Part shown: positions 16,119 to 21,307 of the stretch, one piece after another | Layout: every line of letters starts with the position of its first letter | Position numbering within the stretch: position 1 is the first letter of the stretch | Assembly (NCBI GenBank): GCA_012270045.1 | Contig: JAAXJC010000219.1 | Coordinates: forward strand, 1-58,127 | DNA: 58,127 bases | Direction: 5' to 3' | From: Luminiphilus sp. | Lineage (GTDB): Bacteria; Pseudomonadota; Gammaproteobacteria; Pseudomonadales; Halieaceae | Notes under the pieces: generated by a model | Told to the model about the DNA's origin: nothing | Databases searched by the model: none | Seen by the model: the letters and a program-made list of their open reading frames with translations, nothing else | Position numbers and translations under genes: made by a program

Positions 16119-16636
16119 GGCGGATTCCCATAATCTTCGCCACCTGAAAGCTGGATGTTTCGCTTTATCAGGTGTCCGGTGGTGCAGACAGCGAGCAATG
16201 TACCAATATACTCTCCGTTGGGCATCACATATTCGCGGCCCAGCAGATCCTGTAGCGGTTGCAGCACGAAGTCCCTTAGGTACAAGCCGGGGTGGGGCAG
16301 GGTGAGTCGTTCCTGGTTGATCTCTCTGTTGCCGAATAACAACAGGTCCAGGTCGATGCAGCGCTCACCCCAGTGTCGTCGCCTGACCCGCCCCATACGG
16401 GTCTCAATACCCAACAGATGATCCAGTAGCTCCATGGGTTGCAGGCCTGTTTGCAGTTGCGCACAGGCATTGAGGAACTGGGGTTGATCAGCCGGCCCCA
16501 TTGGTGGCGACTCGTAGACCGGTGACACAGCCAACAGGCGGGTTTGGTCCAGTGCCGCCATCATTTGGCAGGCTGTCGCCAGTTGCCTGGCAGGCTCTTC
16601 TATGTTCGACCCCAATGCCACGAAAGCATTGATCAA
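16115..16636 (-). CDS. folK: 2-amino-4-hydroxy-6-hydroxymethyldihydropteridine diphosphokinase
   Basis: FolK (HPPK) transfers pyrophosphate from ATP to 6-hydroxymethyldihydropterin in folate synthesis. Signatures are FVALGSNIEEP at the start, PQFLNACAQL, and RHWGERCIDLDLLLFG containing the catalytic Asp pair and Arg residues. At 173 residues it is slightly longer than the E. coli enzyme, with an extra C-terminal tail. The start is TTG at 16636 overlapping the pcnB stop (TTGA), and it is coupled downstream to the kinase gene in the same way. Confidence 0.97.
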   Translation of the reverse strand: MINAFVALGSNIEEPARQLATACQMMAALDQTRLLAVSPVYESPPMGPADQPQFLNACAQLQTGLQPMELLDHLLGIETRMGRVRRRHWGERCIDLDLLLFGNREINQERLTLPHPGLYLRDFVLQPLQDLLGREYVMPNGEYIGTLLAVCTTGHLIKRNIQLSGGEDYGNPP

Positions 16637-17907
16637 GGATTGCGATTCCTGCGCGGTCGGCGTCGACGCGGTGGTCGATCGTCTGGACGGGGTGGAGCGG
16701 TGCCCACCAATTCAGGGTGCTTTTGCTGTTGTTGGTCCCAGAATTCGCCGATGCCTTCCAGAGGCTCTCCTGACTCTGCTCGCAACAGCAGCAGATCATA
16801 GGCAGCCCGAAAGCGCCTGTTTGCCAATAAGTCCTTAATTTTCTTGGGTTGCTTGCGTTCCAACCTGGGTTGCAGTTCCCAGATTTCCCTGACCGGGAAG
16901 GAAAACCGCCTGGGGATGGCCATGTGCAGACAGGTCTCGGCAATCACCTGCTGGCCAGCACTGTGCACGGCCTGCAGGGGCGGCTCACCCTGTTGGGCCA
17001 GCGCATTGCCACGAGCCTGGAGTGCTGGCCACAACAGAGCGGCCAGCAAAAATGCCGGTGTGACCGGGCGATCGTCCTTTACCCGCTGGTCGGTGTTTGC
17101 CATGGCGCTGGTGACCAGGGTCCGGTATTGGGGTTCACTGGCAATCAAACTGGCCGCCTCCGGGCAGAGGCAGTGCAGCAAGCCATGTTCCAGCAACAGT
17201 AACAGGGTGGGTTTGCCATAGCCCGCCATGAACAGCTTCAGGAACTCATCAAACAGTCTCGCCGGGGGAATCTCCGTCAGCAGGGCGGCGCACTTGCCAA
17301 TGCCGGCTTCGGTGTCTGCCTCGATGTCAAATTGCAATTTGGCGGCGAAGCGAACCACCCTGAGCATGCGTACCGGGTCCTCCTGATATCGTTTCACCGG
17401 ATCACCGATAACCCTGATCAGCCGCGCCGAGATGTCGCGACCGCCATCAATTTGGTCGAGAACAGTTTCATCCAACGGGTCGTAATACAGCGCGTTGATC
17501 GTCAGGTCTCGACGTGCTGCGTCCTGCTCGAGGGTGCCGTATACGTTGTCTCTCAACAGCAGGCCTTTATCAGAGCGTTTGCTGGCATTCTTGAGTGAGT
17601 CTTCGCTGTCGTGGGGGCCCCTGTAGGTGGTGACCTCAATAACTTCCCTGCCGTCGCGGACGTGTTCTATCTGAAAGCGGCTGCCGATAATTCGATATCG
17701 CCTGAACAACCCTTTGATCTCTTCCGGCTTGGCGTTGGTGGCCACATCGAAGTCCTTTGGCTGCCCACCCAAAATAAGGTCACGGACGGCACCGCCAACG
17801 ATATAGGCTTCAAATCCACTATCGCGGAGTCGTTTTACGATGCGGATCGCGGCCGGGTTGACATGCTGCGGATGAATGGCGTGATCGGACTTTGGGATAC
17901 GGGACAA
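16633..17907 (-). CDS. pcnB: Poly(A) polymerase I
   Basis: PcnB adds poly(A) tails to RNA 3' ends and promotes decay. Homology to other PcnB proteins begins at IPKSDHAIHPQHVNPAA. The nucleotidyltransferase core has VGGAVRDLILGGQPKDFDVAT, with DFD the metal-binding pair, followed by GRDISARLIRVIGDP, RMLRVVRFAAKL and the basic arm IPRRFSFPVREIWELQPRLE. I place the start at TTG 17907 because AGAGGA sits six bases before it. The frame is open to an ATG at 18033, which lacks a Shine-Dalgarno, follows an A-rich tract and would add 42 residues unlike the family. The C-terminus is Arg/Pro-rich. It is coupled to folK. Confidence 0.93.
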   Translation of the reverse strand: MSRIPKSDHAIHPQHVNPAAIRIVKRLRDSGFEAYIVGGAVRDLILGGQPKDFDVATNAKPEEIKGLFRRYRIIGSRFQIEHVRDGREVIEVTTYRGPHDSEDSLKNASKRSDKGLLLRDNVYGTLEQDAARRDLTINALYYDPLDETVLDQIDGGRDISARLIRVIGDPVKRYQEDPVRMLRVVRFAAKLQFDIEADTEAGIGKCAALLTEIPPARLFDEFLKLFMAGYGKPTLLLLLEHGLLHCLCPEAASLIASEPQYRTLVTSAMANTDQRVKDDRPVTPAFLLAALLWPALQARGNALAQQGEPPLQAVHSAGQQVIAETCLHMAIPRRFSFPVREIWELQPRLERKQPKKIKDLLANRRFRAAYDLLLLRAESGEPLEGIGEFWDQQQQKHPELVGTAPPRPDDRPPRRRRPRRNRNP

Positions 17908-17985
17908 CAGACTTCCTCTGGGCAGAGCCTTGGCAAGTGTACTACCGGGCGCTGGCAGGGGGGAATTGGCTTTTTGGGACCCCAC

Positions 17986-18013
17986 AAAGAAACATGGGGA
18001 AGTTGCCTTCCCC
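17986..18013 (-). terminator. Hairpin with GNRA-type loop between cbrB and pcnB
   Basis: Read on the minus strand, GGGGAAG-GCAA-CTTCCCC (18013 to 17996) is a perfect 7-bp stem closed by a GCAA tetraloop, followed by ATGTTTCTTT. It could be a weak intrinsic terminator for a short RNA or an attenuator in front of pcnB. The U content after the stem is moderate and interrupted. Confidence 0.4.
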
Positions 18014-18074
18014 ACCCAGGTCCGTTCTTGCATTTTTTATTGCTTTTGGGCCGTTTATTTTTATTTCGGCTCTG
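17986..18074 (-). ncRNA. Candidate CrcZ-like small RNA or regulated pcnB leader
   Basis: This interval runs from the predicted start of the sigma-54 promoter (about 18074) to the U-rich stretch after a hairpin. It contains an A-rich run of (AAN) triplets (AATAAAAATAA) and a second one (CAATAAAAAATG), the kind of sequence the distal face of Hfq binds in Pseudomonas CrcZ. A perfect 7-bp stem with GCAA loop follows (18013-17996), then ATGTTTCTTT. The location between cbrB and pcnB is exactly that of crcZ in Pseudomonas. At roughly 85-90 nt it is far shorter than CrcZ (about 400 nt), so a structured pcnB leader is the main alternative. Confidence 0.32.
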
Positions 18075-18084
18075 CGCAAAAGTC

Positions 18085-18100
18085 AGCAGGACACATGCCA
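18085..18100 (-). promoter_or_regulatory. Sigma-54 (-24/-12) promoter
   Basis: The minus strand reads TGGCATGTGTCCTGCT, which has the obligatory GG-N10-GC spacing. It matches TGGCAYR-N4-TTGCW at every conserved position except one T in the -12 element. Predicted +1 is near 18074, 41 bases before the ATG at 18033 and 167 before the favoured pcnB start. An EBP gene (cbrB) lies immediately upstream and the operator pair sits 100-125 bp upstream, as expected for sigma-54 promoters. Confidence 0.72.
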
Positions 18101-18172
18101 ACAGAAAAAAAGTATTTATAAACAGCAACTTATGAAAAATTTATCAATGCAGGGCTTTGGTTCCCGGCGAAA

Positions 18173-18204
18173 AGTGTTACTTTTTCACCCCGCAGTGTTA
18201 CTTT
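18173..18204. promoter_or_regulatory. Two 21-bp-phased TGTTAC operators (candidate CbrB UAS)
   Basis: The 11-mer AGTGTTACTTT occurs at 18173-18183 and again at 18194-18204, a centre-to-centre distance of exactly 21 bp, or two helical turns. Each copy is itself a short palindrome (AAAGT-GTT-ACTTT in the first, AGT-GTT-ACT in the second). They lie about 104 and 125 bp upstream of the predicted sigma-54 start, on the same DNA face. TGTTAC/GTAACA half-sites are, from memory, what CbrB binds in Pseudomonas. Confidence 0.6.
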
Positions 18205-18227
18205 CGTCTGCATTGGCTCTGCGAGCT

Positions 18228-19631
18228 TTAACTTCGCCTGCGCTTGCCGGTCTGGCTTCTGGGTAGGTCGAACCGCTGCCTGCGCTCCCACAGACACTTT
18301 CGACTGATGCCCAGCTTCTGGGCGAGTTCGGTCTCGCTCATGGAGTCCTGATGCTCCAGCACGAAGCGCATAAAGTAGTCCTCCAGGCTCAGTTCTCCAT
18401 CTGCAGGGGCCATATCCGGGCCCGAGTTGACCTGCCCTGACGGTCTGTTGGACAGGGCGACCACCGAGAGTTGCAGCTCTGGGCTGCTATTGTCGGTGCT
18501 CAGCCCCATATCCTCGGGCTCTATACACTCCCCGTCGGCCATGACCACGCCCCTTTCCACCGCGTGTTCAAGTTCCCTGACATTGCCAGTCCACGGGTGT
18601 TGCACAGCAATTTGCAGGGCTTCCGGGCTCAGCGGGCGAAACCGGCAGCCCAATTTGTCTGCCAGCTTCTGGGCGAACCATTGGGCCATGCCGGCTATGT
18701 CGCCCTGTCGGTCCCGCAGCGGTGGAATGGTGAGGCTGAGCACATTTATTCGGTAGAAAAGATCCTGGCGAAACTGGTTTTGACTGGCCAGTTGGGACAG
18801 ATCACGGTGGGTGGCGCAAATCAGCCGCACATCCACCGTCTTGCTGGTGACTGCCCCAATCCGGCGTATTTCGCCCTCCTGAATGAAACGCAGCAGTCGG
18901 GACTGGGCTGGTTGAGGGAGTTCGCCTATCTCATCGAGAAATAGCGTGCCGCCATCAGCCGCTTCGATCAGGCCCATACGATTGCTTGTGGCTCCCGTAA
19001 ACGCGCCTTTTTCGTAGCCAAAAAGCTCGGATTCGATAAGGGATTCGGGAATTGCCGCGCAGTTGACCGCCACCAGTGGGCGACTGCTCCTCCTGCTCAG
19101 GGCGTGCACCCGGCGGGCGGTGAGTTCCTTGCCGGTTCCGGTTTCCCCTTGAATCAGTACGGTCGAATCGGTTCGTGCCACCTTGACCGTTTGTAGGTCA
19201 AGACGTTTGAGCATAGGGCACTCACCCTGAAAAAAGGCGCGCTCCGGTCCCGGTGTGGCTTGGTGGCCGGGGTTGCTGCGGTCAGGGTTGGAAAGTGCCG
19301 CTGCTACTACGGCGAGAAGGTCATCGTCGGAGCAAGGCTTGGCAAGATAATCGACAGCACCCGCTTTCATGGAGTCAACTGCCGATCGCAGGCTGGCGTA
19401 GTTGGTCATCACGATCACAGGAACCGGGCTGGCCAGCGGGATCAATTCGGAACCGTTGGCGCCGGGCAACTTCAATTCGGTGACGATTAGGTCAAATTCG
19501 CTGAGATTGTGTCGGGTCTCGGCTTCGTGAACACCTGAGGCTTCCGCTACCTTGTAGTCACGAGCCTCCAATACCCGGCGCAGGGCCTGTCGTTGTGAGG
19601 GCTCATCATCAACCAGCAAGACGTGAGGCAT
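18228..19631 (-). CDS. cbrB: CbrB-like sigma-54 response regulator with Glu at the phosphoacceptor site
   Basis: A 467-residue NtrC-family activator. The receiver domain (1-120) keeps D8/D9, T76 and K98, but the phosphoacceptor position in [12 protein letters not shown] is Glu (E52) instead of Asp. The AAA+ domain has Walker A GETGTGKE (162-169), the sigma-54 contact loop GAFTGA (209-214), and [10 protein letters not shown]. The C-terminal Fis-type helix-turn-helix ends [21 protein letters not shown], closely like Pseudomonas CbrB. CbrB controls carbon/nitrogen use and crcZ. Here its partner kinase cbrA, normally directly upstream, is absent: gluQ is next. Glu often mimics phospho-Asp, so kinase-independent activity is my inference. 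It lies upstream of pcnB, as in Pseudomonas. Confidence 0.9.
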
Positions 19632-19695: not shown

Positions 19696-19722
19696 GGTAA
19701 CAAAATGGCATTATTTGTTACC
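19696..19722. promoter_or_regulatory. 9-bp inverted repeat with GTAACA/TGTTAC half-sites before cbrB
   Basis: GGTAACAAA (19696-19704) and TTTGTTACC (19714-19722) are a perfect inverted repeat with a 9-base centre. It overlaps the gluQ stop codon and lies about 65-91 bp upstream of the cbrB start. The half-site is the same TGTTAC/GTAACA as in the repeats downstream of cbrB, so autoregulation by CbrB is plausible. There is no T tract after it on the minus strand, so it is a poor intrinsic terminator for gluQ. Confidence 0.5.
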
Positions 19723-20557
19723 TTGGTACACGGTTCGGCTGCCAATGTGCGATGCTCCAGTCGATCAGTGCGGCAGCGTTGTTAATGGTCGCCGGGGGCA
19801 TAGGCTGCCCCAGGGCAACCAGCGCGGTCCGCAAATTGTCCTCAGGTCGCGATAGATCGACGGCAGCTGCGCCCGTTTGTTTACTCAGTTTGAAGCCCTG
19901 GGAATTTGTCACCACAGGAAGGTGGGCATACTGTGGTGACTCCAGCCCCAATCGTTGTCTGATGAATATCTGCCTTGGGGTGGAGTCCAGCAGGTCCTTG
20001 CCGCGCACAACCTGGGTAATGGCCGGGAGCGCATCATCCACAGCGGCTGCCAACTGGTAGGCGTACAGTCCGTCCCTGCGCCGAACAATGAAATTGTTCA
20101 GTTGACGACCAAGCTGCCACGTCTCGGCTCCGGAAACCCCGTCGTCGATGTTGATAACCGTTTCTTCAGGCACCTTGATACGCAGACTGGTTTCAGCGTC
20201 GGGTGGGCGAGATTGCTCGGCACAACCGCCCCTGCAACTACCATTTTCCGCCAGTGTCGCCCGGGTGCAGACGCAGTGAAACAGGTCACCCTGGTCCGTG
20301 AGTTGCTGTAATGCGGCATCGTAGCGCTGGCTGTGGCTGCTCTGGTAGTCAATGGCGCCGTCGTGGCCAAGGCCGTGGGCGTCCAGGCAAGCGGTGATGG
20401 CTGCGACTGCGCCCTGTGCTGCTCGAGGCGGATCGATATCATCAATCCGCAGTTGCCAAAGACCCGACTGGCTGCGCGCCCACAGGAAACTTCCTACTGC
20501 AGCCACCAGTGATCCCGCGTGCAGGGGACCCGTCGGCGACGGGGCGAACCGCCCTAT
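19718..20557 (-). CDS. gluQ: Glutamyl-Q tRNA(Asp) synthetase
   Basis: This truncated GluRS paralogue attaches glutamate to queuosine-34 of tRNA(Asp). The class I signature FAPSPTGPLHAGSL (HxGS replacing HIGH), RIDDIDPPR, the zinc ligands CVCTRATLAENGSCRGGC and FKLSKQTGA (KMSKS-like) are present. The first ATG/GTG/TTG in frame is GTG at 20506, inside the SLVAAVG segment, which would delete the HIGH-like motif. The frame is open back to a TGA just after dksA and offers only ATA (20557), giving IGRFAPSPTG as in other GluQ proteins, or ATC (20590, with GGGG upstream). I use 20557; a non-AUG start or a sequence error is implied. Confidence 0.92.
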   Translation of the reverse strand: MGRFAPSPTGPLHAGSLVAAVGSFLWARSQSGLWQLRIDDIDPPRAAQGAVAAITACLDAHGLGHDGAIDYQSSHSQRYDAALQQLTDQGDLFHCVCTRATLAENGSCRGGCAEQSRPPDAETSLRIKVPEETVINIDDGVSGAETWQLGRQLNNFIVRRRDGLYAYQLAAAVDDALPAITQVVRGKDLLDSTPRQIFIRQRLGLESPQYAHLPVVTNSQGFKLSKQTGAAAVDLSRPEDNLRTALVALGQPMPPATINNAAALIDWSIAHWQPNRVPR

Positions 20558-20626: not shown

Positions 20627-21307
20627 TCAGCCCAGTTCCTGTTTTTCTTTGATTTCCGACAGGGTTTTGCAGTCGATGCAAAGAGTAGCGGTAGGTCGGG
20701 CTTCAAGGCGTTGGATGCCAATTTCGATGCCACAGGCATCACAGTAGCCGTAGTCATCCTGCACGATTCGTTCCAGGGTGCCGTCTATTTTCTTGATCAG
20801 CTTGCGCTCCCTGTCCCGGGTCCGAAGCTCAAGACTGAACTCCTCTTCCTGGGTTGCCCGGTCGGCAGGATCTGGAAAATTGGCCGCCTCGTCTTTCATA
20901 TGGGAAACGGTGCGGGTGACTTCGTCAACCAGTTCGGAACGCCAATGGAGCAGCAGACCCCTGAAATGCTCCAACTGCTCGTCGTTCATATAGGACTCGC
21001 CCCGTGTCGGTTTGTAGGGCTTGAAGTCGTCGAAATTCTGCACGGTGCCCACTGCCCGGGCAATTTTGGCCGCCCCCTTTTTGCCGCCTGCAGTTCCTTT
21101 GGCCTTGGATGGGGCTGGCTTGGCGCTTTTTGTGCCTTGTTGCTTTGCGGCTGGTGCCTTTGTCGCGGGCTTCGCAGCAGCTGGCTTTTTGACAGGAGCT
21201 TTCTTCGCCACAGCTTTCTTTACGGGTGCCTTTTTGGCCGGGGCCTTTTTAGCGGCCGCTTTTTTGGCAGCGGGCTTCTTCTTCGGGTTGGATTTCCTGG
21301 TGGTCAT
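20627..21307 (-). CDS. dksA: RNA polymerase-binding factor DksA with a long Lys/Ala-rich N-terminal tail
   Basis: DksA binds the RNA polymerase secondary channel and, with ppGpp, adjusts rRNA and amino-acid promoters. The core from about residue 90 is complete: [21 protein letters not shown], the coiled-coil tip DPADRA with its two acidic residues, [18 protein letters not shown], and the zinc finger CDACG...CIDC. Residues 1-85 are an extra tail of [13 protein letters not shown]-type repeats resembling histone H1 or AlgP, making 226 residues against about 150 normally. It is upstream of gluQ, as in Pseudomonas and E. coli. Confidence 0.96.

Follow-up and report, generated by a model that had tools for sequence, protein, structure and literature searches.

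The window (the whole stretch of Luminiphilus sp. DNA that we analysed, 58,127 nucleotides) carries on its minus strand, between cbrB and pcnB, a conserved locus that probably encodes a compact decoy RNA of the CrcZ lineage, driven by CbrB and sigma-54 in a genus that has lost the CbrA kinase. CrcZ-type RNAs of Pseudomonas and Azotobacter soak up Hfq and so free genes for less-preferred foods from repression. The CrcZ of Pseudomonas aeruginosa, 407 nt long with six A-rich stretches, is a decoy that occupies the distal face of Hfq (PMC4063720), and in P. putida, CbrB subsites of the form TGTTAC/GTAACA, with centres 20 to 25 bp apart, drive crcZ and crcY together with sigma-54 (PMC6296734). In the mechanism that we propose, a CbrB-type activator would bind two GTAACA sites and switch on the sigma-54 promoter, and the resulting RNA would terminate at a GGGGAAG/CUUCCCC hairpin ahead of pcnB and titrate Hfq/Crc in the manner of CrcZ, but on a reduced scale and with no kinase involved. 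The level of the decoy would then be set otherwise, by the amount of CbrB or sigma-54 or by steady expression. With two A-rich tracts as opposed to the six of CrcZ, titration would need a high copy number.

The features of the locus mapped here, from gluQ to pcnB, lie on the minus strand. The gene for the cbrB-type activator (NtrC family, 467 amino acids, GAFTGA motif) occupies 18228..19631, with its stop codon at 18228. The best segment of its product is 53% identical to a cbrB-like gene of Pseudomonas fildesensis (L138); because the 25 NCBIfam matches listed for the protein contain no CbrB model, the name cbrB is based on neighbourhood and similarity. Upstream lies gluQ (19718..20506), which takes the place that cbrA holds in relatives outside the genus, and no cbrA stands beside the cbrB of the window. 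The dksA frame (20627-21307) begins with a long Lys/Ala/Pro-rich N-terminal stretch that weakly matches a histone-H1-like model; similar stretches occur in L130, L131, and L132. Downstream of cbrB are a distal (18196..18201) and a proximal (18175..18180) GTAACA, the motif of the P. putida CbrB subsites (PMC6296734), and the proximal copy starts 80 bp before the −24 element. The earlier note on this DNA had described the operators as two copies of AGTGTTACTTT 21 bp apart; the number and spacing hold, whereas AGTGTTACTTT is the plus-strand reading and the core on the transcribed strand is GTAACA. A poorly conserved AT-rich spacer (18101..18174), where P. putida has an IHF site, separates these sites from the sigma-54 −24/−12 promoter, TGGCAT-N5-CTGCT, at 18085..18100.

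The predicted small RNA (17984..18076) would start at about 18073-18076 and end within a T-rich tail at 17984-17995. It contains a putative short stem, GCCG/CGGC (18050..18070), the loop of which is the first A-rich (CA / ARN) tract, AAATAAAAATAAA (18054..18066), followed by a second A-rich tract, AAAAGCAATAAAAAA (18033..18047), both tracts being identified by pattern and alignment. The sequence GGACCTGG (18016..18023), near-invariant in family alignments, lies 5′ of a 7-bp hairpin, GGGGAAG-GCAA-CTTCCCC (17996..18013), which is followed by ATGTTTCTTTGT and is terminator-like in combination with the tail. Next comes pcnB, encoding poly(A) polymerase (16633..17907; TIGR01942, 467.7 bits against a cut-off of 305.65). 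Its start is probably the TTG at 17907, after AGAGGAAG, and not the mechanical ATG at 18033, which falls within the predicted small RNA. All of the elements listed in the earlier note, including the A-rich tracts and the GCAA-loop hairpin with its tail, are present on the minus strand.

Judged singly against chance, only some of these elements stood out. The GTAACA pair at 18175-18201, with starts 21 bp apart, occurred once in the window and in none of 100 dinucleotide shuffles, and the operator pair is beyond chance. TGGCAT-N5-CTGCT alone was at chance level (1 found, 0.98 expected in the window), and the A-rich tract AANAANAANAA at 18055-18065 was weak on its own (2 in the window against 0.56 expected, with 9 of 100 shuffles reaching 2); a longer A-rich pattern, AANAANAANAANA, had no match in the window scan. 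A scan of the window for terminator-like sequences found 2 against 1.4 expected, and the T tail is moderate, with 8 T in 12. An Rfam search of the window at the gathering score returned no RNA family. Since the single elements are mostly unremarkable, the weight of the argument falls on their joint conservation.

That conservation extends throughout the family. A protein search with CbrB matched all 120 family genomes at E 0.001, paralogues included (some best matches reached only E 1e-67 to 1e-84), and we read 50 loci, comprising the 30 best-scoring ones, the window's own among them, and 20 further chosen ones. The element order of the window recurred in all 50 (the window and 49 relatives), and so did the −24/−12 element, unremarkable as its pattern is when taken alone. 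At least one exact GTAACA lay within 130 bp upstream of the promoter in 49 of the 50 loci, and two or more did so in 32. In 47 loci, an exact GTAACA started 79 to 83 bp before the −24 element, the exceptions being L008 and L009, where the nearest was at 90, and L051, which has no exact GTAACA. Two A-rich clusters were found by pattern in 49/49 loci and by eye in L065, one of the 20 chosen loci, which had escaped the first hairpin pattern and was added after reading. The promoter and A-rich tracts, for which the earlier note had proposed a comparison of relatives, recur in these loci. A GACCTGG-type hairpin was present in 50/50 loci, in the form GATCTGG in L065. All 21 loci of the genus have a single hairpin module, and loci of other genera have two (23/29) or one (6/29). 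The second GACCTGG-type module lies 95 to 258 bp past the first, with extra A-rich tracts where these were read; loci that carry it include L013, L016, L018-L022, L025, and L028-L031.

By sequence comparison, the RNA of the window is likely to be a compact, single-module homologue of CrcZ. Positions 281-371 of the 398 in the Rfam CrcZ model aligned with 17986-18072 at 21 bits (E 0.0011, 451 bases searched). As the gathering score of RF01675 is 95 bits, the RNA falls outside that family in its present definition and we class it as a short homologue. A whole-genome search with the Rfam model at E 0.001 did not find the window's genome. For a test in the other direction, we trained a covariance model, R1, on 37 sequences from the window's family. 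R1 matched the 3′ end of CrcZ in all 12 of the family f21 loci that Rfam's CrcZ model had brought in above its cut-off (L116-L127), with E values of 1.1e-5 to 0.038, 2 of the 12 being below 0.001. We infer from the Rfam CrcZ model and from the pcnB start of G342 that f21 is Pseudomonadaceae. Further R1 matches came from P. fildesensis (L138, 0.0056), Serpens gallinarum (L143, 0.012), and Dasania (L139, two matches, 2.7e-7 and 1.1e-4), and there was none at E 1 in L137, L140, L141, or L142, two of which are Gilvimarinus. Of the 16 f21 genomes recovered by Rfam's model, a genome-wide search with R1 recovered one, G342, where its match falls within that of Rfam. A relation to full-length CrcZ is thus visible but weak; within the 407 nt of CrcZ, the last module is the counterpart of the RNA of the window. 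The CrcZ-like, CbrB/sigma-54-driven short RNA of the earlier note is still the best reading of the locus, and its length, about 90 nt as predicted from promoter and conservation, is far below that of CrcZ, as the note had supposed.

In a search of 390 genomes of the order at E 0.001, R1 matched 64, belonging to the window's family and 12 other families, and had no match in 326; Rfam's CrcZ model found 71 of the 390, and the match passed its cut-off in 19 (16 from f21, 3 from f2). Among 369 genomes drawn from the class, an R1 search with stricter filters, which lose weak matches, found only the window's own genome and none of the 368 others; those listed without an R1 match include 4 further genomes of the same order, one of which, G139, was found by Rfam's model. 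We examined 15 further R1 loci (L081-L095, half of the 30 returned), and 14 of them had cbrB on one side and pcnB on the other; they came from the window's family, f24, f30, f32, and f47. In L083 (G163), the R1 match was on a contig piece with neither cbrB nor pcnB; this genome has three R1 matches, which are perhaps CrcY/CrcX-like paralogues.

The cbrA-cbrB-RNA arrangement is also present in the window's family. CbrAB and the cbrA-cbrB-crcZ synteny are described as unique to Pseudomonadaceae in a 2022 review (PMC8871633), and PMC6296734 calls CbrAB exclusive of the Pseudomonads. The loci described here speak against a restriction to Pseudomonadaceae. With cbrA-cbrB-RNA in the window's family and four more families showing cbrB-RNA-pcnB, the system seems to be older and wider. 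Among the best-ranked titles and abstract beginnings of the open-access literature, we found no report of CrcZ or CbrA/CbrB outside Pseudomonadaceae, and terms for distribution were absent from PMC13022988 in a term search.

The partners that the proposed mechanism calls for are encoded in the window's genome, which has Hfq (E 2.6e-29), RpoN (E 1.6e-67), and Crc; the earlier note had named hfq and crc as genes to look for. The closest solved relative of this Crc is that of P. aeruginosa (E 4e-63), and neighbouring frames place the crc gene between rph and pyrE. At E 1e-20, a Crc search had matches, weaker paralogues included, in 117 of the 120 genomes of the family; within the genus, it gave no match in G110, a fragment in G049, and only weaker matches in G115 and G117.

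The earlier note did not deal with the kinase, which is where the genus departs from its relatives. A CbrA signature was present in the frame upstream of cbrB in 19/19 loci of other genera and in 0/31 loci of the window's genus, where we examined 0.7 to 2.6 kb upstream and found gluQ matches instead (gluQ adjoining cbrB was read directly in a subset of loci). A full CbrA search returned orthologues of at least 47% identity in most other genera of the family; the exceptions were g5 and g28, with no match at 1e-30, g22, with distant matches only, and g13, with the kinase half only. In the g13 genomes G013, G036, G050, and G061, the match covers only residues ~635 to 1000, in open frames of 394 to 404 amino acids, and it seems that the SLC5 transporter half was lost there and the kinase half left near cbrB, another change of input. 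For the 37 genomes of the window's genus, the matches listed were kinase-domain pieces or distant SLC5-kinases of 28 to 35% identity. In the window's genome, an assembly in 225 contigs, no open frame that matches SLC5 exceeds 671 amino acids, which is too short for CbrA.

The CbrB receiver is altered as well. The acceptor is Asp (SDLRLPG) in all 19 relatives with cbrA. Of the 31 CbrB proteins of the genus, 11 carry Glu there (TEL or TEM), 13 keep Asp but in a stretch remodelled to the LDPGRNE type, and 7 carry Gly, along with Arg in place of the conserved Lys. The window's CbrB has Glu (TEL) for the acceptor Asp but keeps the acidic pair and the receiver Lys, and its AAA+ domain with GAFTGA and its CbrB-type DNA-binding end are present. 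In a tree built from the AAA+ and DNA-binding regions, a branch with support of 100/100 set the genus apart, and single branches likewise set apart the Glu type (90/89), the LDP type (100/100), and the Gly type (98/92); two outgroup rows fell among the family's other members, so the deep placement is unsure. The simplest account would be a single loss of cbrA that preceded the receiver changes. An Asp-to-Glu change is a phospho-mimic in the NtrC-like NmpR (PMC6211767), and a limited literature search, a term search of one paper, found no test of such a mimic in CbrB. Because cbrA is missing and the receiver site is changed, CbrB probably works without phosphorylation, and it would probably drive the decoy without its kinase.

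The same observations bear on the possibility that CbrB is still phosphorylated, by another kinase, and that the RNA reports carbon status as in Pseudomonas. The genus does have kinases that are locally similar to CbrA domains (the 28 to 35% matches listed above), the window's CbrB retains the acidic pair and Lys, and phosphorylation may persist in the 13 genomes in which the Asp itself is kept, albeit within a remodelled stretch. However, the acceptor is Glu in 11 CbrB proteins, the window's included, and Gly with Lys changed to Arg in 7 others, which makes this unlikely.

A decoy that CbrB drives without its kinase leaves one feature of the RNA to be explained. Mean pairwise identity among the 21 genus loci was 0.67 for the operator block, 0.41 for the spacer, and 0.71 for the promoter. 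It was 0.54 between the promoter and the first A-rich tract, 0.79 across the A-rich part, 0.64 for the next 9 bases, 0.91 for GGACCTGG with the hairpin, and 0.77 for the T tail, and it fell to 0.35 between the tail and pcnB. GACCUGG and the stem sequence are thus the most conserved part of the RNA; GGACCTGG plus the stem sequence is near-invariant in several families and absent from Pseudomonas CrcZ. Since the sequence of the terminal stem hardly varies, there is next to no covariation in it. For the upstream GCCG/CGGC stem (stem 1), an arm-swap test gave a same-RNA pairing score of 10.52 against 9.57 ± 0.27 with swapped arms, and 0 of 500 swaps did as well; the test ignores relatedness, and its automatic splitting was wrong for L009. 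RNAalifold did not predict stem 1, and per-sequence tests against mononucleotide shuffles were mostly not significant; in that analysis, the stem-end pattern had no match in 27 of 49 loci, the ends of which were left out. Only the arm-swap test supports this candidate stem. A small peptide encoded by ATGGACCTGGATGGG was considered and rejected, because many relatives have ACG, GTG, or AAG in place of its ATG and the loop is free to vary.

The conservation of the GACCUGG-hairpin is more than a pure decoy would explain. This RNA could instead be a sigma-54-driven one that acts mainly by base pairing, with GACCUGG-NN-GGGG as the seed and the A-rich tracts merely loading Hfq. The near-invariance of GACCUGG in the family alignments, its recurrence in other families and in the second modules, and the greater constraint on element plus hairpin than on the A-rich tracts all fit such a role. 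Against it, Pseudomonas CrcZ lacks the element, and a search of 41 genus genomes with a 13-base seed revealed no conserved complementary target above the control. The 13-base complement occurred in 37 of the 41 genomes. Assuming that the RNA gene itself accounts for one copy in each genome, 8 copies are left over (4 in the window's genome and 1 each in G118, G116, G113, and G865), compared with 14 for the reversed control pattern. We therefore regard action mainly by base pairing as rather improbable.

The identity profile also bears on whether the transcript is separate from pcnB. The alternative offered by the earlier note was a leader of pcnB under regulation, through which polyadenylation would follow carbon status. 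In its favour, the probable pcnB start lies on the strand of the RNA, 167 nt downstream of the predicted RNA start, and the terminator is of moderate quality. In Pseudomonas, transcripts from the cbrB promoter reportedly extend into crcZ (PMC8871633), which implies that units of the locus can join. However, identity falls from 0.54 to 0.91 over the parts of the RNA to 0.35 past the tail, and the 23 two-module loci outside the genus have their second hairpin further downstream. Because the sites, promoter, and RNA are conserved and conservation collapses before pcnB, the locus looks like one for a separate small RNA of ~90 nt, and a pcnB leader is very unlikely. A chance resemblance of unrelated motifs between two genes, which the near-chance frequencies of the promoter pattern and A-rich tract in the window might suggest, has a negligible probability because of this conservation, with a fixed geometry in 47 of 50 loci and no R1 match in the 368 other class genomes.

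Returning to the decoy, we put forward more tentatively a broader reading, possible rather than probable, in which the genus has uncoupled catabolite repression from carbon sensing. CbrA would have been lost, CbrB locked by Asp-to-Glu in one clade and its receiver remodelled or destroyed in sister clades, and the decoy shrunk to one module, leaving a kinase-free activator to set the amount of free Hfq/Crc; the GACCUGG-hairpin would give the RNA lineage a second activity, one that Pseudomonas CrcZ lost or never had. The genus thus offers a natural experiment, in which the RNA and operators were kept after kinase loss and phospho-site change. It makes two questions testable, namely, how small a working Hfq/Crc decoy can be and how such a decoy is controlled once the carbon sensor is gone, and the locus exposes, in GACCUGG, a conserved RNA element.

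Of the known systems, the closest is CrcZ of Pseudomonas (Rfam RF01675, with its relatives CrcY and CrcX), which shares with the predicted RNA of the window a place between cbrB and pcnB, the RNA of the window being on the strand of both genes. The GTAACA-type CbrB sites, their spacing, and the sigma-54 promoter agree with those of P. putida crcZ and crcY (PMC6296734), except that P. putida has one forward and two reverse CbrB sites and the window has two reverse sites only. Both RNAs have several A-rich Hfq-type tracts of the AANAANAA kind, in two clusters in the RNA of the window, and CrcZ has a GGGGAG/CUCCCC-type hairpin near its 3′ end, R1 aligning with roughly its last 90 nt. The RNA of the window differs in its predicted length of ~90 nt as opposed to 407, in having two A-rich tracts rather than six, in the GACCUGG that CrcZ lacks, and in a score far under the Rfam cut-off, and it stands in a genome without CbrA and with a changed CbrB receiver site. 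The CbrA/CbrB system itself shares with the window the CbrB DNA-binding end and the dksA-gluQ-cbrB-pcnB neighbourhood; cbrA is kept in other genera of the family and missing from the window's genus, where the receiver site is Glu, remodelled, or Gly. Protein-titrating RNAs of the RsmY/RsmZ type, named as an analogue of CrcZ in PMC4063720, resemble the RNA of the window in that it too would be a decoy for a global RNA-binding protein; the protein and the motif are different, and we claim no homology.
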